From contig DAIDGZ010000089.1 in the NCBI GenBank assembly GCA_027452125.1, positions 1 to 39,818 on the forward strand: a stretch of 39,818 nt of DNA, read 5' to 3'. The DNA is from Acidobacteriaceae bacterium (GTDB lineage: Bacteria; Acidobacteriota; Terriglobia; Terriglobales; Acidobacteriaceae). The position numbers and the translations under genes were made by a program. The notes beneath the pieces were generated by a model. It was not told the origin of the DNA, made no database searches, and worked only from the letters and a program-made list of their open reading frames with translations. The stretch's first letter is position 1, and the number at the start of each line of letters is the position of its first letter. Positions 5,007 through 39,818 of the stretch are shown piece after piece.

Positions 5007-5879
5007 TCACGCAGTGAGCGGACCGTAGGCTTGTCCTATCTCCGCACTCTCAAGCACCAACTCATTCAGAGGGGCCAACTCCGGCAGCGCCGCGCCGCAT
5101 CGCGTGAGTTCTTCCAGCAGGACTTCTGTAGCGATGTTCCCCACCAGGGTATCCTGTGCAAACGGACACCCTCCCAGGCCAGCCAGTGCCGCATCAAAAC
5201 GTCTGCATCCCGCATCCCATGCGGCGCGGATACGCGCCGCCGAGTCGTGACGACGCGCATGCAGATGAACGCCGACCTCAATGTCGGGAAGCGTCTCCTT
5301 GATAGCAGCAAACGTCTCAGCTATCTGGCTCGTCTCAGCCACGCCCGCCGTATCTGCCAGTGAGATCTGACGCACCCCGCATGCGGCAACCGCGCTGCAT
5401 GCCTCTGTGAGCGATTGCAGATCCAACGCCTCTCCGTAGGGGTTGCCAAAGGCCATAGACAGATACACAACCATGTCCAGTTCATTGCTTTGGCCAAGTT
5501 GTGCGATCTCGGTCATCGTGCGCAGCGAGTCTTCCGGCTCCTTATGTTGGTTTCGGCGCAAAAACTCCGCGGAGACCGAATGAGGATAGCCAAGTGTCAG
5601 CACCGCTTCGGTTCCGATGGCTCTCTCCGCGCCTCGCCTGTTCACAACGATTCCGATGATCTCTACATCGTCTGGCGAAGCCAGCAGCTCCAGCACGCGC
5701 TCGGAGTCGCTCATCTGCGGAACCGCTTCCGGTGAGACAAAGCTTACGGCGTCAATGTGCTTGAATCCAGCAGTAATCAATTTGCGCAGATGCGCAACCT
5801 TGCGTGCCGTCGGAATCTGCAGAGGCAGGCCCTGCCAGGCATCGCGAGGACACTCTACGATTTTCACGCGTTCCGCCAT
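5007..5879 (-). CDS. mvaB: Hydroxymethylglutaryl-CoA lyase, divergent (Bacteroidota-like) form
   Basis: TIM-barrel lyase splitting HMG-CoA into acetyl-CoA and acetoacetate, the last step of leucine degradation. The N-terminal block ECPRDAWQ keeps the catalytic Arg12 and Asp13. Metal-site residues His205 and His207 (VHLH), the mobile-loop Cys238 in GLGGCPFAQD, and Asn248 in GNIATE are all present. The Asp that usually follows VHxH (HDTxG) is Ala208, and ECPRDAWQ replaces the usual VGPRDGLQ; to my knowledge both resemble the Bacteroidota branch of the family. I chose ATG 5879 (GGGGAA upstream) over GTG 5894. It lies between the acyl-CoA dehydrogenase and hydratase genes with short gaps, consistent with one mRNA. 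Confidence 0.88.
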   Translation of the reverse strand: MAERVKIVECPRDAWQGLPLQIPTARKVAHLRKLITAGFKHIDAVSFVSPEAVPQMSDSERVLELLASPDDVEIIGIVVNRRGAERAIGTEAVLTLGYPHSVSAEFLRRNQHKEPEDSLRTMTEIAQLGQSNELDMVVYLSMAFGNPYGEALDLQSLTEACSAVAACGVRQISLADTAGVAETSQIAETFAAIKETLPDIEVGVHLHARRHDSAARIRAAWDAGCRRFDAALAGLGGCPFAQDTLVGNIATEVLLEELTRCGAALPELAPLNELVLESAEIGQAYGPLTA

Positions 5880-23235: not shown

Positions 23236-23616
23236 ATGGCGACAATCCTACTGGTGGACGATGATCCTCTCCAGGCGCTGCAAGACAAATCCATACTTGA
23301 GCGCCGTTTCCCCCACGTGTGCCGGGTGGCCGATGCCGCCGAGGCGCTTTGCCTGATCGAAGAACAGGCTTTTGCCGAGTCTCTCGGCCTGGTTGTCTCC
23401 GGTCATCTCATGCCCGGCTTCGGCAAGCCGGCTTTCATTGCAGAACTGCACCAGCGCATGCCCTCCCTGCCGGTGCTCGTCCTCAAGGATGAGCAGGAGG
23501 ACGCAGCCTCGTACAAGGGCAACCAGGTACAGGTGCTGTCGCGCCCCTTTCTTCCGGAAGCCCTCCTCAACATGGCTGACCGCATGCTCACCCGCAAACT
23601 AGCCGCTACCGCGTAA
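23236..23616 (+). CDS. Stand-alone response-regulator receiver domain lacking the phosphoacceptor Asp
   Basis: 126-aa CheY-like fold without an output domain. The acidic pocket ILLVDDD (residues 4-10) is intact. The segment that normally reads VVSDHLMPG is VVSGHLMPG, so Gly56 occupies the phosphoacceptor position. The Ser/Thr switch position is Lys84 (VLVLKDE), and the conserved Lys before Pro-Phe is Arg103 (LSRPF). It therefore cannot be phosphorylated in the usual way and is probably a pseudo-receiver acting by protein-protein contact, or a decaying gene. ATG 23236 has AAAAGGG about nine bases upstream; the frame is open further upstream without recognisable sequence. No kinase gene is adjacent. 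Confidence 0.85.
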   Translation: MATILLVDDDPLQALQDKSILERRFPHVCRVADAAEALCLIEEQAFAESLGLVVSGHLMPGFGKPAFIAELHQRMPSLPVLVLKDEQEDAASYKGNQVQVLSRPFLPEALLNMADRMLTRKLAATA

Positions 23617-33403: not shown

Positions 33404-33511
33404 GGACTCCTCAAACATCCCACCACTTGTTCATCGCTCCATCAGCGAGTCTCAGAACCCACACTTCCGCCGCAGCCGGCATCCCCGCCTGTGGCCATTG
33501 GAACCCATAGC

Positions 33512-34993
33512 GTGTCGAGCCAATCCAAGCGCAATCTTCTGCTCCTTGCCGCCTTTTCCCTGCTCTCCTTCCTGGTGATGGGCTATCATCCCGGTCTCGA
33601 AGACGATGGCGTCTACCTCGCCGCTGTGCTCAGCCGCCTGCATCCCGCGCTCTTCCCCCACGACGCCGAGTTCTTCCGCGTCCAGCTTCAGGCCACCGTC
33701 TTTGACACCTGGATGGCCGCATTCGTTCGCCTCTCGCACCTTTCCGTCGCCTGGGCAGAACTGCTCGTCCAGTTTGCCTCCATCGTTCTCATGCTCTACG
33801 CCTGCCGCCGCATCGCGGCCCGGCTCTTTCCCGAGCTGCGTGCCCAGTGGGCCGGCGTGGCCATGGTTGGGGCCATGCTCACATTGCCCGTCGCCGGCAC
33901 CGCGCTCACCCTGGCCGACCAGTACCTCCAGCCGCGCAATATCGCCTCGGCGCTCATCCTGCTGGCCATCGCGCACGTCCTGGAGAATCGCCGCTGGCGG
34001 GCCTTCTTCCTGCTGACGCTCTCCTTTGTCATCCATCCGCTCATGACCGCCTTCGGCATCTCCTTCTGCCTCTTTCTTGCGGTCATCCTCAGCCCGCGCG
34101 CCGCCGCCTGGCTCAGCTCCACCCTGCGTCCCCGTCCCGGCATGGCCGCCCTCCTCCCCCTCGGCTGGATCTTTGAGCCGCCCAACCCGCTCTGGAAGAA
34201 GGCTCTCGACACCCGCACCTACTACTACCTCTACCAGTGGACCTGGTACGAATGGCTGGGTGCTCTGGCCCCTATCCTGCTCTTCTGGCTGCTCTGGCGG
34301 CTGGCCCGCCGCCGCGGAGAAACGCCCCTCGCCCGCTTCGCGCTGGCCGTCTTTGCCTACTCCGTCTTCCAGCAGGTAGTTGCCATGCTCCTGCTCGGCA
34401 TCCCCGCCCTGGTCCGCACCACGCCCTGGCAGCCCATGCGCTACCTGCATCTGGTCTACGTCTTCCTGTGCCTCATCGCCGGCTGTCTGCTGGGTCGGCT
34501 CCTGCTTCGCGACCGCGCCTGGCGATGGGCTATCTATCTCATCCTCATCAACGGCGGCATGTTCTTTGCCCAGCGGCAGATGTTTGCCGCCAGCGCCCAT
34601 CTGGAGCTGCCCGGCATGCGCCCCGTCAATCCCTGGCTCCAGGCCTTTGCCTGGGTACGGCAAAACACCCCCCAGGATGCCTACTTCGCCCTTGACCCGA
34701 ACTACCTGTCTGCCCCGGCCGAGGACTATCACAGCTTTCGCGCCCTGGCCCAGCGCAGCCAGCTCGCCGACGCCATCAAGGACGCGGCCGTCGTCACCCA
34801 GGTGCCCGAACTCGGCACCGAGTGGAACCGCGAAGTCGAGGCGCAGGCCGGCTGGAAGCACTTCCGCATCGCGGATTTTGAAAGACTTAAGGCGCAATTC
34901 GGCGTAAATTGGGTGCTCCTCGCTTCCCCGCCGCCCGGCGGGCTGGACTGCCGCTGGCACAATGCCATGCTCACCGTCTGCCGCATACCGTAG
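33512..34993 (+). CDS. GT-C-like polytopic membrane protein, paralogue 1
   Basis: 493 aa with about ten hydrophobic segments up to residue 365, then a soluble C-terminal domain. After the first helix comes GYHPGLEDDGVY; an acidic motif in the first outer loop is the hallmark of GT-C transferases that use polyprenyl-phosphate sugars. The middle has YYYLYQWTWYEWLGALAP and the C-domain has NPWLQAFAWVRQNTPQDAYFA. All of these are shared with the protein at 35965-37455. GTG 33512 (GGAA upstream) gives an N-terminus like the paralogue; GTG 33491 is the alternative. Family 2 transferase next door could supply the lipid-linked sugar. Function inferred from architecture only. Confidence 0.75.
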   Translation: MSSQSKRNLLLLAAFSLLSFLVMGYHPGLEDDGVYLAAVLSRLHPALFPHDAEFFRVQLQATVFDTWMAAFVRLSHLSVAWAELLVQFASIVLMLYACRRIAARLFPELRAQWAGVAMVGAMLTLPVAGTALTLADQYLQPRNIASALILLAIAHVLENRRWRAFFLLTLSFVIHPLMTAFGISFCLFLAVILSPRAAAWLSSTLRPRPGMAALLPLGWIFEPPNPLWKKALDTRTYYYLYQWTWYEWLGALAPILLFWLLWRLARRRGETPLARFALAVFAYSVFQQVVAMLLLGIPALVRTTPWQPMRYLHLVYVFLCLIAGCLLGRLLLRDRAWRWAIYLILINGGMFFAQRQMFAASAHLELPGMRPVNPWLQAFAWVRQNTPQDAYFALDPNYLSAPAEDYHSFRALAQRSQLADAIKDAAVVTQVPELGTEWNREVEAQAGWKHFRIADFERLKAQFGVNWVLLASPPPGGLDCRWHNAMLTVCRIP

Positions 34994-35170
34994 ATCGCTT
35001 AGGCCTGTTGCCCGGGACGAGCAAATGCTCTCCTGCGGCGCAGCGCCACACGACCGCGCCTCCACCGCCACAAAACCTGCAAATACCTGAAATTCTGCTT
35101 ACTGTAACCACTCTCCAGCGTCGTATCATTACCCTATCGGGGCTCATTAAGCGCACGTCCGGCAAATAAC

Positions 35171-35968
35171 ATGATCAATGGAAAGAAAGTGGTCGTCGTT
35201 CTTCCTGCTTACAACGCTGAGAAGACCTTGGAAAAGACGATCCAGGAAGTCTCAGGCGTCGTGGACGCCTGCATCTTAGTCGACGACCGCAGCAGCGACA
35301 AAACCGTGGAACTCGCCCACCGCCTGGGTCTCCAGGTGATCGTGCACGAGCGCAATCGCGGCTACGGCGGCAACCAGAAGACCTGCTATGCGGCTGCGCT
35401 CAATGAAGGCGCGGACATCGTCGTCATGCTGCACCCGGACTACCAGTACTCGCCGCTTCTCGCCGAGCCCATGGCCAGCATGATCGCCTACGGCGTCTAC
35501 GACATCGTCCTCGGCTCGCGCATCCTAGGCGGCGGAGCCCTGCGCGGCGGCATGCCGCTTTACAAGTACATCGCCAACCGCGCGCTTACGTTCTTTGAGA
35601 ATCTGCTGCTGGGCGCCAAGCTCTCGGAGTACCACACCGGTCTCCGCGCCTACAGCCGTGAACTGCTGCTCTCCCTCCCCCTCGAAGCCAACTCGGAGGA
35701 CTTCGTCTTCGACAACGAATTGCTGGCGCAGTGCATCTACATCGGCGCCCGCATCGGCGAGATCTCCTGCCCCACGCGCTACTTCCCTGAGGCCTCGTCC
35801 ATCAATCTGCGCCGCAGCACCATCTACGGTCTCAGCGTGCTCAAGACCACCGTGGATTGCGTGGCCGCGCGGCTTGGCATCTACCGCAAGCCCATCTTTA
35901 ACTTTCCCCCGATCCACCTGAAGCAGAGTAAGACATCCATACCGCTATCAGCGGAGGAGATTTCATGA
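35171..35968 (+). CDS. Glycosyltransferase family 2 (polyprenyl-phosphate sugar synthase-like)
   Basis: 265-aa GT-A enzyme. VVVVLPAYNAEKTLEKTI at the N-terminus, ILVDDRSSDKT (nucleotide-sugar Asp pair), ERNRGYGGNQKTCY, and MLHPDYQYSP with the DxD-type acidic site are standard. YHTGLRAYSRELL follows in the acceptor half. It resembles dolichyl/polyprenyl-phosphate mannose or glucose synthases and has no membrane helices at the C-terminus. The stop overlaps the next start by four bases (ATGA), so the GT-C-like paralogue 2 is translationally coupled to it. The gap upstream (34994-35170) holds a possible -10 (TATCAT) but nothing firm. Confidence 0.9.
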   Translation: MINGKKVVVVLPAYNAEKTLEKTIQEVSGVVDACILVDDRSSDKTVELAHRLGLQVIVHERNRGYGGNQKTCYAAALNEGADIVVMLHPDYQYSPLLAEPMASMIAYGVYDIVLGSRILGGGALRGGMPLYKYIANRALTFFENLLLGAKLSEYHTGLRAYSRELLLSLPLEANSEDFVFDNELLAQCIYIGARIGEISCPTRYFPEASSINLRRSTIYGLSVLKTTVDCVAARLGIYRKPIFNFPPIHLKQSKTSIPLSAEEIS

Positions 35969-37455
35969 AGTTTCCCCAGGACGGGCGCCTGCCCATCCTC
36001 CGCCTGGCTGCCCTCACTGCTGCCGCGCTTGTGATCCACGGTTATCATCTTGGCGTTGAAGACGGAGAAATCTACATCCCAGCCGCGCGGCGGCTCATCC
36101 ACCCGCATCTGTATCCATTTGCGCCTGAGTTCTTTCTGTCCCATGCGCATCTCTCGCTCTTCAGCCCCATTCTGGCGGTAACGGCGCGCCTGACGCATAT
36201 GTCCATCGACTGGACCATCTTCGTCTGGTACCTCATCAGTCTCTTCGCTACGCTGACCTCGTGCTGGCTGTTTGCCTCGGCATGTTTCTCCAGCGCCCGC
36301 GCCCGCTGGACGTCCATGGCGGTCATTACGGCGGTGCTCACCATGCCTGCCACGAATACCGGGCTTTTGCTCATGGATCCTTACCTGACCGCGCGCTCCC
36401 TCTCCACGCCGCTCACCCTCTTCGCCCTGGCCGCGTTTCTTCAGGGCAGCTATGTGTGGATGGGCGTGGCCATGCTGCTTACCGCGTCGGTTCACCCCCA
36501 GATGGTCGTCTACCTGCTCTTCCTCGTTGGGGTCATCTGGGTAGCAGAGCGCAAACGATCCACCGTCCGCGAACCGGAGCCGGCGCTGGCTTCGGCCATC
36601 GCCCTCATGCCCACCGGCTTTCATCTCAGTCCAGCCACCGGCCCCTATCGCGAGGCGCTCTTCTCCCGCGATTACTTCTTCCTCTACAACTGGACCTGGT
36701 ATCACTGGCTCGGCCTGCTGGGCCCGCTGGCCATCCTGGCCTGGTTCTGGAAAGCCGACCTGCGCGGCACCCTGCCCGGCTTCCGCCGCATCTGTTTTGC
36801 TCTGCTGCCCTTCGGCTTGCTCTCCATCGCCGCAGCGGCGCTCCTCTGCTCCTCGCCGGACTTTGAGATGTTCGTCCGCCTTCAGCCATTGCGCTCCTTC
36901 CATCTGATTACGCTCATCTTTGTCCTGCTCTTCGCCGGCGTCGCAGGGGAGTATCTGGCCAAAGGCCGCCCCTGGGTCATAGCGGCAATCGCATTGCCGC
37001 TGGCCATCGGCATGTTTGTGGTCTCCCGCCAGACCTATCCCCACAGTCCCCAGATCGAGCTGCCCTCGAATACCAGCAGCAACCCCTGGGTCAACACCCT
37101 GCTCTGGATCAGATCCCACACCCCCACGGACGCTGTCTTCGCCGTGGATTCCCGCTACTTCAAGGACCCGGTGGTCGATGTGCACGGCTTCCGCGCCATC
37201 TCCGCGCGCTCTGAACTGGCTGACTACTACAAGGACGGCGGCGTCGTCTCCCTGTTCCCCGCCCTCGCCCCGGAGTGGAAGCGGATGAGCAACGCCACCT
37301 ACGGCCTCAACCACTTCACCCCCGCGCAATTCCGCGCGCTGCGTCAGGAGTACCCTGCAGTCTCCTGGACCGTCATCCATGGCCAGGCGCCAGCCTCCAT
37401 GACCTGCCCCTACCAGCAGGGCGGATTCAGCGTCTGCCAGATGCCGCAGAGCTGA
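35965..37455 (+). CDS. GT-C-like polytopic membrane protein, paralogue 2
   Basis: 496 aa; same plan as the protein at 33512-34993. First-loop acidic motif GYHLGVEDGEIY, about ten hydrophobic segments, the central FLYNWTWYHWLGLLGPL and the C-terminal NPWVNTLLWIRSHTPTDAVFAVD with FRAISARSELADYYKDGG. Start ATG is inside the GT2 stop codon, behind GGAGGAG. The two paralogues are clearly related but only moderately similar, so the duplication is old. They probably transfer different sugars, or the same sugar to different acceptors, outside the membrane. I do not recognise a characterised homologue. Confidence 0.77.
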   Translation: MKFPQDGRLPILRLAALTAAALVIHGYHLGVEDGEIYIPAARRLIHPHLYPFAPEFFLSHAHLSLFSPILAVTARLTHMSIDWTIFVWYLISLFATLTSCWLFASACFSSARARWTSMAVITAVLTMPATNTGLLLMDPYLTARSLSTPLTLFALAAFLQGSYVWMGVAMLLTASVHPQMVVYLLFLVGVIWVAERKRSTVREPEPALASAIALMPTGFHLSPATGPYREALFSRDYFFLYNWTWYHWLGLLGPLAILAWFWKADLRGTLPGFRRICFALLPFGLLSIAAAALLCSSPDFEMFVRLQPLRSFHLITLIFVLLFAGVAGEYLAKGRPWVIAAIALPLAIGMFVVSRQTYPHSPQIELPSNTSSNPWVNTLLWIRSHTPTDAVFAVDSRYFKDPVVDVHGFRAISARSELADYYKDGGVVSLFPALAPEWKRMSNATYGLNHFTPAQFRALRQEYPAVSWTVIHGQAPASMTCPYQQGGFSVCQMPQS

Positions 37456-37600: not shown

Positions 37601-39007
37601 ATGCTCAATCTCTCGCAACGATTGATCCTGGGCTGCGTGTTGCTGGCAGGCCTCACCGTCGGCCTTGTCCTGCTCACGCATCGTGTGCTGGTCGCGGCCG
37701 GCCTTGGTAACCTCGCGCTCGGCTTCGCGATTGCCGCGGCCGTCGTCGCCCTCGCCACCATCGCCCTGGTCCTGCTGCCCATCCACACCCTGGCCCGCGA
37801 CGCGCGCCGGCTTGCCGAGGGCAACCTCGACCATCATGTCGAGTGGAGCAGCCGCGATGACTTCGGCGTGATCGCCAGTGAAATGAGCCGCATCGCCGTG
37901 CGGCTGCGCGAGCTGCGCGACACCGAGGCCGGACGCCGCCAGATGGAGTTCCAGCTCTCCGACGCCGTCCTCCAGTCCATCTTTGAACCCATCATCGTCA
38001 CGGACAGCAAAGGCCACGTGCTCAAGGTGAACCAGGCCGCCGCTGAGGTTCTCGGCGAGGCCGCGGGCGACCGCATGGCGCTCACCACCACCCCCGGCGG
38101 TGGGAAGATTCTCACCGCCATCCGCGACGCCGTCGCCATGCAGAAAGCAGTAGCCGGCGAAGGCGATGCCGCCATGCTGCCCATGCGCATCGGCAAACAG
38201 TCGCGTAGCTTCCGCCTCCGCACCACGCCCATGCGCGACTCCGAAGGACGCCTGCTCGGCGCCGTCACTACGCTCGAAGACGTCACCACGTTGCAGGACA
38301 CCGATCGCTTCAAATCCCAGTTCATCGCCGTTGCCAGCCGCAAGCTGCGCGATCCCCTCCTCCAGTTGCGCCGCGGCCTCTACGCTCTTGGGCATGGCTT
38401 CGCCGGCAGCCTGCAGCCGCTTCAGGCCGAACTGGCCAACATGGCCATCGCTGAGGCTGAAAATCTGAATGACCTCATGGGCGACCTCATCGAAGTGGCC
38501 GAGCTCGACATCGGCACCCGCGAGTTCAAGAAAGAGCAGCTTCGCCCGCTGCGGGTTCTTACCCTGGCCCGCGACCGCCACTGCGACGAAGCCACCCGCA
38601 AGCATATCCGCATCGATGTGAATGCCTACGCCGATCTCTCCGTGATTGAAGCCGATCGGCGGGCCGTCCGTTCCATCTTTGACAATCTGCTCTCCAACGC
38701 CCTGCGCTACACCCCTGAAAACGGCGAGATTCTGCTTGCCGCCGAAGAGATCAAGGACTTTGTGCAATTCACCGTGCGCGACACCGGGCGAGGCATCGAG
38801 GCCGAGCGCCTGAGCAAGATCTTTGACCGCTTCAATCCCTTCTCTGAGCGCGGCTCCGGCCTGGGCCTGGCCCTGGTCCGCCGCCTGGTTGAGTCGCTCG
38901 GCGGGCAGATCGCCGTGGAGAGCCGCCTCGGCCACGGAACCACCTTCCGCTTCACGCTTCCCGTCGCCTCCGTCAGCGAGGCCCGGCATCCTGTGGAGGT
39001 AGGCTGA
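37601..39007 (+). CDS. HAMP-PAS sensor histidine kinase with Arg in place of the phosphoacceptor His
   Basis: 468 aa. Two membrane helices (about 8-28 and 38-60) with almost no periplasmic loop, HAMP (60-110), PAS (about 120-230), dimerisation helices (235-300) and an ATPase domain (310-455). The H-box reads FIAVASRKLRDPL, so Arg247 stands where SHELRTPL has His; the codon is CGC against CAC. The ATPase domain looks complete: N-box NLLSNALRY, G1 DTGRGI, G2 GSGLGLALVRRL. It may bind ATP and signal without autophosphorylation, or act in heterodimers. Start ATG has GAGGAGA upstream. The KdpD sensor gene starts two bases after the stop. Confidence 0.88.
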   Translation: MLNLSQRLILGCVLLAGLTVGLVLLTHRVLVAAGLGNLALGFAIAAAVVALATIALVLLPIHTLARDARRLAEGNLDHHVEWSSRDDFGVIASEMSRIAVRLRELRDTEAGRRQMEFQLSDAVLQSIFEPIIVTDSKGHVLKVNQAAAEVLGEAAGDRMALTTTPGGGKILTAIRDAVAMQKAVAGEGDAAMLPMRIGKQSRSFRLRTTPMRDSEGRLLGAVTTLEDVTTLQDTDRFKSQFIAVASRKLRDPLLQLRRGLYALGHGFAGSLQPLQAELANMAIAEAENLNDLMGDLIEVAELDIGTREFKKEQLRPLRVLTLARDRHCDEATRKHIRIDVNAYADLSVIEADRRAVRSIFDNLLSNALRYTPENGEILLAAEEIKDFVQFTVRDTGRGIEAERLSKIFDRFNPFSERGSGLGLALVRRLVESLGGQIAVESRLGHGTTFRFTLPVASVSEARHPVEVG

Positions 39008-39009
39008 GC

Positions 39010-39818
39010 ATGGCTGAACTTCATCTCGAGCACCCGCAGGAGCAGGCCAAGCTCCGCATCTACATCGGCGCAGCCCCCGGCGTCGGCAAAACCTATCACA
39101 TGCTCGATGACGCCTACCTGATGCGCCATCAGCAGGGTATGGACGTGGTCATCGGCCTCGTCGAGCCGCACAGCCGCCCGGAGACCGCCGCCCGCATCCG
39201 CGACCTGGAGCAGGTGCCGCTGCGCGAGATCCCCTATCGCGGCGTCACCCTCAGGGAGATGGACCTCGACGCCATCCTGGCACGCCGTCCCCACACCGTC
39301 ATCGTCGATGAGCTGGCCCACACCAACGTCCCCGGCTGCCGCAACCGCAAGCGCTACGAGGATGTGCTGGAGCTGCTCGACGCCGGCATCAACGTGATGA
39401 CCGCCGTCAACATCCAGCATCTGGAGACGCTCAACGACGCCGTCAACCGCTCCGCCGACACCGTCATCCGCGAAACCGTTCCTGACAGCTTCTTCAAGCG
39501 CGCCGATGAGGTCGTCAACATCGACATCACCATCGATGAGCTGCGCAATCGCCTGCGCCAGGGCAAGATCTACGCTCCTGAAAAGGTCGAGCAGGCCCTC
39601 GCCAACTTCTTCCGCAAGGGCAACCTGAACATGCTCCGCGAGCTGGCCCTGCGCACCACCGCCGAACAGGTCAGCAGCCGCGCCGCCGAGTACCGCCGCA
39701 CCCAGGGTCTGGAGCAGGCCCCCATCCCCGAGAAAGTCATGGTCTGCCTGAGCAGCCGTCCCGGCACCGAACGCCTGCTGCGCGTGGGCACCCGCATCGC
39801 CGGCCGCCTGGCCACCAA
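39010..39818 (+). CDS. kdpD: KdpD sensor-domain protein, 3'-truncated by the window edge
   Basis: 269 codons present, open to the last base. The N-terminal KdpD domain is unmistakable: Walker A GAAPGVGKTY (residues 20-29), Walker B TVIVDELAHTNVPG near 97-110, NIQHLETLND, and the block VEQALANFFRKGNLNMLRELALR. A universal-stress-like domain begins near residue 245 (EKVMVCLSSRPGTERLL). In K+ sensing this region modulates the kinase. It directly follows a separate kinase gene, so it may be a split system with a short KdpD lacking its own kinase domain, or a full KdpD; the window ends too soon to tell. Position suggests translational coupling. Confidence 0.93.
   Translation, partial: MAELHLEHPQEQAKLRIYIGAAPGVGKTYHMLDDAYLMRHQQGMDVVIGLVEPHSRPETAARIRDLEQVPLREIPYRGVTLREMDLDAILARRPHTVIVDELAHTNVPGCRNRKRYEDVLELLDAGINVMTAVNIQHLETLNDAVNRSADTVIRETVPDSFFKRADEVVNIDITIDELRNRLRQGKIYAPEKVEQALANFFRKGNLNMLRELALRTTAEQVSSRAAEYRRTQGLEQAPIPEKVMVCLSSRPGTERLLRVGTRIAGRLAT

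Follow-up and report, generated by a model that had tools for sequence, protein, structure and literature searches.

A conserved pseudo-histidine kinase paired with a stand-alone KdpD in Acidobacteriaceae: a candidate case of signaling without histidine phosphorylation

Introduction

What does a histidine kinase do once its phosphoacceptor histidine is gone, and how does it relate to the KdpD gene that follows it? Both questions are raised by the end of the window, a 39,818-nucleotide stretch of Acidobacteriaceae DNA that constitutes a complete contig (DAIDGZ010000089.1; C89 in our numbering) of a 2.72-Mb assembly that is 67% complete and whose closest relatives are Acidobacteriaceae, Terracidiphilus among them. 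Here, a forward-strand open reading frame (ORF) for a 468-residue pseudo-histidine kinase (positions 37601 to 39007), with a transmembrane-HAMP-PAS-DHp-CA architecture and no phosphoacceptor histidine, is followed on the same strand by a gene for KdpD (39010 to 39818).

The phosphoacceptor histidine is reported to be replaced in about 1% of histidine kinases (PMC5361649), and few of the bacterial pseudo-histidine kinases have a known partner. The original prediction for this locus proposed that the signal might pass through the KdpD protein, through changes in ATP state, or through a heterodimer. Among these options, routing through the KdpD protein is the best reading of the comparisons presented here, in which the histidine-less kinase is kept beside a single, defined partner.

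Results

The H-box of the window protein reads FIAVAS-R247-KLRDPL, with Arg247 (codon CGC, 38339 to 38341) at the phosphoacceptor position and Lys248 and Asp251 instead of the usual glutamate and threonine. The N, G1, and G2 boxes (N362/N366, D394-x-G396-x-G398, and G418-x-G420-x-G422) are intact within a CA domain (38654 to 38968) that scores 99.5 bits against the Pfam HATPase_c profile (cut-off, 26.4 bits). The ORF sequence and Pfam therefore agree with the original prediction that Arg247 replaces the histidine while the three ATP-site boxes persist, and its placement of KdpD two bases downstream is likewise correct, the kinase stop codon ending at 39007 and the KdpD ATG starting at 39010. 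The HisKA profile remains under its curated cut-off in the window protein (17.7 versus 26.9 bits) and is exceeded by the histidine-less relatives at L199 and L169. The phosphoacceptor histidine required of kinases of the HisKA/HATPase_c type is absent from the window protein and from the aligned rows, and all NCBIfam names matched by the window protein (WalK and others) fall far below cut-off.

The loss of the histidine is conserved. An alignment of 68 rows comprised the window protein and 67 of the 76 loci found, omitting nine distant kinases that are 22 to 25% identical; in the 67 rows with a residue in column 247, there are 61 arginines, 2 glutamines, 2 serines, 1 alanine, 1 asparagine, and no histidine. 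Sampling 200 Acidobacteriaceae genomes recovered 46 carriers in 15 of 79 genera, a set that overlaps the alignment, and position 247 again lacks histidine (20 Gln, 14 Arg, 5 Glu, 2 Ala, 2 Ser, 2 Asp, and 1 Leu). Orthologs with histidine at this site would have spoken against the original prediction; no examined ortholog has one, making signaling without the conserved histidine very likely.

Neighboring positions changed as well. The catalytic glutamate at position 248 is replaced in all 46 carriers (42 Lys and 4 Arg), and position 251 is aspartate in 32 and threonine in only 3, as opposed to glutamate or glutamine at 248 and threonine at 251 in the 22 histidine-bearing relatives included in our tree. 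N362, N366, D394, G396, G398, G420, and G422 are kept in 46 of 46 carriers, and G418 in 42. Because positions 247, 248, and 251 are replaced and the N and G boxes are conserved, the residues of kinase and phosphatase chemistry are gone and the ATP pocket is kept. Column 247, with an entropy of 2.1 bits, is the eighth most variable of 76 DHp columns, and its neighbors are nearly invariant.

Purifying selection has maintained the ATP pocket and the fold, dN/dS values being 0.038 to 0.180 in 22 close ortholog pairs (>86% identical; the window protein is in none). Within the genus, 36 of the 36 genomes first examined carry the gene and one more, G201, does not. Sequencing error, chance, and recent decay are ruled out by the conservation across the 67 rows and 46 carriers together with the dN/dS values.

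The kinase gene is consistently paired with KdpD. In all 62 loci (of 67) where the contig extends far enough, KdpD is the next gene on the same strand, with a gap of 3 bases in 43 of them. By coordinates, KdpD adjoins the kinase in 45 of 46 family carriers, the exception being G252, in which the kinase gene runs to the contig end and KdpD lies on another contig; 41 of the 46 carriers have a single KdpD. When the 30 best-scoring KdpD loci of the family were fetched, 19 encoded the stand-alone paired type, each with the histidine-less kinase upstream, and the remaining 11 encoded another type of KdpD, with a divergent histidine-bearing kinase as its neighbor in 8 cases. The window's KdpD is read for 269 residues up to the contig end; in three relatives checked by Pfam, it is a stand-alone protein of about 375 residues with KdpD and Usp domains only and no kinase domain. 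The pseudokinase thus appears to have been partnered with stand-alone KdpD for a long time, in some of the Acidobacteriaceae as well as in one or more further families. At one locus (L203, 6755 to 9036), a KdpD-like gene scoring 237 bits is followed in tandem by another that has diverged strongly and scores 137 bits.

The last codons of the window's kinase gene contain GGAGG (38995 to 38999), a possible ribosome-binding site for KdpD. Of 63 loci, 62 have GGAG, GAGG, or AGGA where the kinase gene ends, a count that has no chance level and in which conserved Glu-Val/Ala codons alone give GAGG. This arrangement suggests that the two genes are translationally coupled.

The paired KdpD retains the residues of a serine kinase. 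In Escherichia coli, the KdpD domain is described as an atypical serine kinase that shuts down the pump by phosphorylating Ser162 of KdpB and needs neither the KdpD histidine nor the DHp-CA part for this (PMC11018627). The KdpD domain of the window protein scores 305 bits against PF02702 (cut-off, 26.1 bits); the 550-bit threshold of NCBIfam NF038185 (KdpD_non_kinase) is reached neither by this partial copy (347.8 bits) nor by the full-length protein of L077 (412.8 bits). Its Walker A motif is GAAPGVGKT (39067 to 39093), and Asp100-Glu101 of Walker B (39307 to 39312) are taken, from motif and numbering without an E. coli alignment, as the counterparts of the E. coli residues D109 and E110 named in PMC11018627. 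GVGKT, D100, E101, and R181 (the arginine of the adenine pair, assigned through a numbering offset without an E. coli alignment) are present in 64 of 64 paired-type KdpDs, in which position 29 is aromatic. The target serine is present too, KdpB containing TGES at 19 of 19 kdp loci.

The inputs described for KdpD elsewhere appear to be missing. The K+-sensing membrane part that E. coli KdpD carries itself is not on the paired-type chain. The short KdpD of Deinococcus geothermalis is reported to perform the same phosphorylation under stimulation by cyclic di-AMP (c-di-AMP) (PMC11018627). A search of 25 family carriers, of which 24 have a completeness of 93% or more, found no diadenylate cyclase, the control genomes being positive in 11 of 14 cases, and so the published input for a short KdpD is missing in Acidobacteriaceae. 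Control by c-di-AMP is accordingly unsupported in these carriers. Families f19, f30, and f79 have a cyclase. None of the KdpDs checked (63 paired-type, 30 intermediate, and 7 others) has the Usp motif SxS-x20-FTAxY, of the Staphylococcus aureus type (PMC4686210); the E. coli-type motif is carried by 55 of the 63 paired-type and by 21 of the 30 intermediate proteins.

The histidine was probably lost more than once, and neither histidine-less lineage has an adjacent receiver. Relatives were sought across 396 genomes of the phylum by a KdpD search and by a search with the kinase alignment (matches in 31 of the 396 genomes at an E value of 1e-75), and a tree of 65 rows was built with the H-box columns removed. 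The 42 histidine-less rows of Acidobacteriaceae and family f19 (one gene appearing twice) form one clade with a Shimodaira-Hasegawa-like approximate likelihood ratio test (SH-aLRT) support of 100; f19 belongs to another class, and so transfer between classes is possible. The histidine-less L214 (family f79, FIATAAQALQEPL) groups with five histidine-bearing rows, also with a support of 100. A single origin of the loss was rejected by the approximately unbiased (AU) test (P = 6.6e-5), although the long branch of L214 calls for caution. The tree therefore points to at least two losses.

The L214 gene is the same as that at 5790 to 7622 of L183 (G521), a second, independent histidine-less kinase beside KdpD in a kdp operon. 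Its H-box substitutions differ (His to Gln, Glu to Ala, and Thr to Glu), its N and G2 boxes are damaged, and the protein probably does not bind ATP.

The histidine-bearing relatives indicate what was lost. These HAMP-PAS kinases of other Acidobacteriota families (L174, L175, L177, L318, and L319), recognized by alignment and tree, include three (L174, L175, and L177) that lie directly beside KdpD, like the pseudokinase; unlike it, the sisters keep the histidine, glutamate, and threonine and an adjacent receiver gene. At 13 of 13 loci checked (12 genomes, out of the 22 histidine-bearing tree rows), a receiver-type gene is the immediate same-strand neighbor of the kinase, lying downstream of it at 8 loci and solely upstream at the other 5 (L323 to L327, which encode longer proteins); Pfam confirmed the receivers for five proteins of L174, L175, and L177, the others being recognized by a small custom profile. 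The 67 histidine-less loci, 46 of which extend at least 2 kb beyond KdpD, yielded only two receiver hits, kilobases away and on the other strand. No receiver occurs at L169, L183, L200, L201, or L250, only distant ones occur at L199, and the only one at L168 is the regulator that follows a DUF4118 kinase. Loss of the histidine and absence of a receiver go together in both lineages.

The receiver proteins after the histidine-bearing kinases (L174, 4577 to 6066; L175, 4231 to 5699; L177, 10858 to 11778) have a C-terminal part of about 110 to 140 residues without a Pfam match, and two lie in tandem at both G608 loci.

A separate, histidine-bearing kinase accompanies the pump genes. Of 15 kdpABC regions fetched, one was the pair itself; in the other 14 carriers, the kinase beside kdpABC keeps its histidine, 13 showing the motif TH(E/D)LRTPL and the 14th (L239) reading AHDFLTPL. 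In three loci checked by Pfam (L238 and L240 among them), this kinase has a DUF4118-HisKA-HATPase architecture, as does the C-terminal half of KdpD. Each of the three also encodes a KdpE-like regulator of the OmpR type, whose score falls short of the NCBIfam KdpE cut-off. Matches to PF13493 occur in 29 of 31 genomes and, in many of these, are only a few kilobases from kdpA. The DUF4118 membrane domain is not in the window kinase, according to Pfam, and is present in this other gene of the relatives. The original suggestion of split parts consequently holds for KdpD, which lacks a kinase domain in the three relatives, and fails for the pseudokinase, which is not the half split from it, a different histidine-bearing kinase adjoining kdpABC in 14 of 14 loci. 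Because a separate histidine-bearing kinase stands by kdpABC, the histidine-less protein is a third component.

In family f19, all of these components come together: L168 encodes KdpA, KdpB, KdpC, the histidine-less kinase, KdpD, a histidine-bearing DUF4118 kinase, and a KdpE-like regulator in one stretch, and L169 encodes KdpA, KdpB, KdpC, the histidine-less kinase, and KdpD consecutively. KdpA or KdpC is present in 42 of the 46 family carriers. The window's own genome (67% complete) has no match to kdpA, kdpC, or DUF4118. The near-complete G077 (L200 and L213) keeps the pair and has no match to KdpA, KdpC, or DUF4118.

The remainder of the window protein begins with a pair of predicted helices (residues 4 to 72; 37610 to 37816) that we take to lie in the membrane and that leave hardly any loop outside it, followed by a HAMP-like segment below the Pfam cut-off (residues 56 to 103; 37766 to 37909), a PAS domain recognized by Pfam (about residues 121 to 231; 37961 to 38293), and a modeled DHp helical hairpin (residues 229 to 266 and 272 to 304; 38285 to 38512). 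The AlphaFold model is moderate (mean predicted local distance difference test score [pLDDT], 72.6; predicted template modeling score [pTM], 0.45) and supports the domain folds, not the domain arrangement. In the alignment, proteins of other genera and of f19 are longer by about 120 to 150 residues toward the N terminus.

None of the other histidines in the DHp domain of the window protein is conserved among the 46 carriers. The only common alternative is His463 (44 of 46) in the C-terminal tail, which overlaps the possible ribosome-binding sequence of KdpD. The Acidobacteriaceae rows conserve this tail, HPVEVG (38987 to 39004), which the aligned histidine-bearing sisters lack; the possible ribosome-binding sequence explains part of its conservation, not the His-Pro.

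Elsewhere in the window, large membrane proteins flank a glycosyltransferase-like gene upstream of the pair (33491 to 37455), and related loci have the same kind of genes upstream (DUF6798 and a family 2 glycosyltransferase). A receiver-like protein (23236 to 23616) reads Gly at the phospho-Asp position by its MPG anchor (VVSGHLMPG). The original prediction had tied this pseudo-receiver, which is 14 kb away, to the pair; the link is without support, and none was looked for.

Discussion

The overall best explanation, which we put at about an even chance, is that the membrane-anchored pseudokinase controls the serine kinase of the short KdpD by contact. The HAMP, PAS, and ATP-binding state of the pseudokinase would be passed to KdpD by direct contact, changing the KdpD complex and setting its Walker-type serine kinase activity; KdpD would then phosphorylate the TGES serine of KdpB and shut the K+ pump. 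The pseudokinase would in this way replace the K+-sensing membrane part that E. coli KdpD has in cis. Because the published input of short KdpDs is missing in Acidobacteriaceae and the E. coli sensor is absent from the chain, the pseudokinase is the natural candidate to supply the input, and transcription of kdpABC would be left to the separate histidine-bearing kinase and the OmpR-type regulator beside it. A broader reading, which we offer more tentatively and with slightly less than even confidence, is that Acidobacteriota have, on at least two occasions, turned the histidine kinase fold into a membrane receptor subunit for the serine kinase KdpD, so that a pseudokinase-KdpD complex switches the K+ pump without a His-Asp relay and, in Acidobacteriaceae, without c-di-AMP.

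Several observations weigh against contact control of the pump. The gene is patchy in the family, 154 of 200 genomes lacking it, and the window, Terracidiphilus, and Acidicapsa proteins are without the external sensor region kept by other genera and f19. Among the family carriers that were compared, kdpABC is either at a distance of about 50 kb or more from the pair or on a different contig, and the link between pair and pump is for that reason drawn from the known role of KdpD. Neither KdpA nor KdpC was found in pair-carrying G077 (99% complete) and G232 (90%), nor in the less complete G116 and the window's genome. KdpA is only weakly associated with the pair, occurring, by hand tally, in 40 of 46 carriers versus 112 of 154 other genomes, or, among near-complete genomes, in 31 of 33 versus 90 of 113. 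The serine kinase activity of the acidobacterial KdpD is predicted by homology. As to the missing input, the cyclase is also absent from six of seven family genomes without the pair and hence not specifically from carriers, and it is present in all three histidine-less carriers outside the family (G262, G492, and G521); the S. aureus-type Usp motif, being missing from every KdpD type checked, does not discriminate and says little.

Two alternatives retain some weight. It is possible, if unlikely, that the pseudokinase heterodimerizes with the histidine-bearing kinase beside kdpABC or binds the OmpR-type regulator, tuning kdpABC transcription with KdpD as only a co-regulator. There are precedents in the pseudokinase-kinase heterodimer reported for ChrS/HrrS (PMC9491836) and in the binding of a receiver by DivL (PMC4211667), and candidate partners are at hand in the kinase found at all 14 kdpABC loci, in the DUF4118 type and OmpR-type regulator of the three checked, and in the f19 operon at L168, which holds both pseudokinase and DUF4118 kinase. 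However, the loci are separate in the Acidobacteriaceae compared, while pairing with KdpD is kept in 62 of 62; the architectures differ (HAMP-PAS versus DUF4118), and G077 keeps the pair without any DUF4118 match. Also unlikely, and to us somewhat doubtful, is that the pair has a target other than the Kdp pump, such as a different K+ or envelope system. The persistence of the pair in G077 without KdpA or KdpC and its distance from kdpABC in the compared family carriers would fit such a target, whereas its position within the kdp operon in f19, the presence of KdpA or KdpC in 42 of 46 carriers, and the single KdpD in 41 of 46 argue for Kdp.

Autophosphorylation on another residue, feeding an unlinked response regulator, is improbable. 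The intact ATP site would permit it, but no other DHp histidine of the window protein is conserved, the H-box glutamate and threonine are also replaced, and no receiver is adjacent; position 247 itself is not a phosphoacceptor, since it accepts Gln, Arg, Glu, Ala, Ser, Asp, and Leu. That the pseudokinase is a split-off kinase half of KdpD in a decaying two-component system, as the kinase-KdpD gene order and the failure to find kdpA in the window's own incomplete genome might suggest, is highly improbable, being contradicted by conservation across 15 genera of the family, by purifying selection and a conserved ATP site, and by the separate histidine-bearing kinase of the KdpD C-terminal type.

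Kinases with a replaced histidine and short KdpDs were already known; what seems to be new is their stable pairing together with the absence of a receiver, and the literature, as partially covered, contained no description of a histidine-less kinase paired with KdpD. The chemistry and target of the KdpD partner are known from other bacteria, and the histidine-bearing sisters show what was lost. The pair makes control of a short-KdpD serine kinase in bacteria without c-di-AMP directly testable, and phosphoacceptor loss combined with absence of a receiver gene may serve as a signature for finding other pseudokinases with changed jobs.

Comparison with known systems

The KdpD of D. geothermalis and the kdpD-N product of Deinococcus radiodurans resemble the paired KdpD in being stand-alone KdpD-Usp proteins with no kinase domain and with the serine kinase residues kept, the kinase half and the regulator being encoded separately (PMC11018627 and PMC5716572, as far as these sources describe them). 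They differ from the system described here, in which a histidine-less kinase is co-encoded and no c-di-AMP synthase was found in the family carriers searched.

For the pseudokinase, the proposed mode of action would be like that of NifL on NifA or DivL on CckA, and the heterodimer of the pseudokinase ChrS (PMC9491836) is a further precedent for control by contact. DivL of Caulobacter shares a histidine kinase fold with PAS and a replaced phosphoacceptor; its structure (4q20) is the best sequence match in the Protein Data Bank (PDB), its 101.8 bits giving it a lead of 1 bit over an ordinary kinase, and the good fold matches include DivL together with many ordinary kinases. As reported, DivL has tyrosine at the site, binds a receiver, and controls CckA (PMC4211667, PMC5361649), and one DivL is said to have alanine there. 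In the pseudokinase, by contrast, position 247 varies, with tyrosine in no row of either residue set and alanine in one and two rows, there is no linked receiver, and the gene is partnered with KdpD. NifL, according to PMC11509896, is a histidine kinase-like protein that binds NifA and in this role neither phosphorylates nor is phosphorylated, and thus shares the plan of a PAS-DHp-CA protein controlling its partner by binding without phosphotransfer. The NifL-NifA structure (9qq6) ranks 46th in the fold search, among many ordinary kinases, and NifA is a transcription activator, whereas KdpD is a serine kinase. For both NifL and DivL, the likeness is one of working and not of membership in a sequence family.

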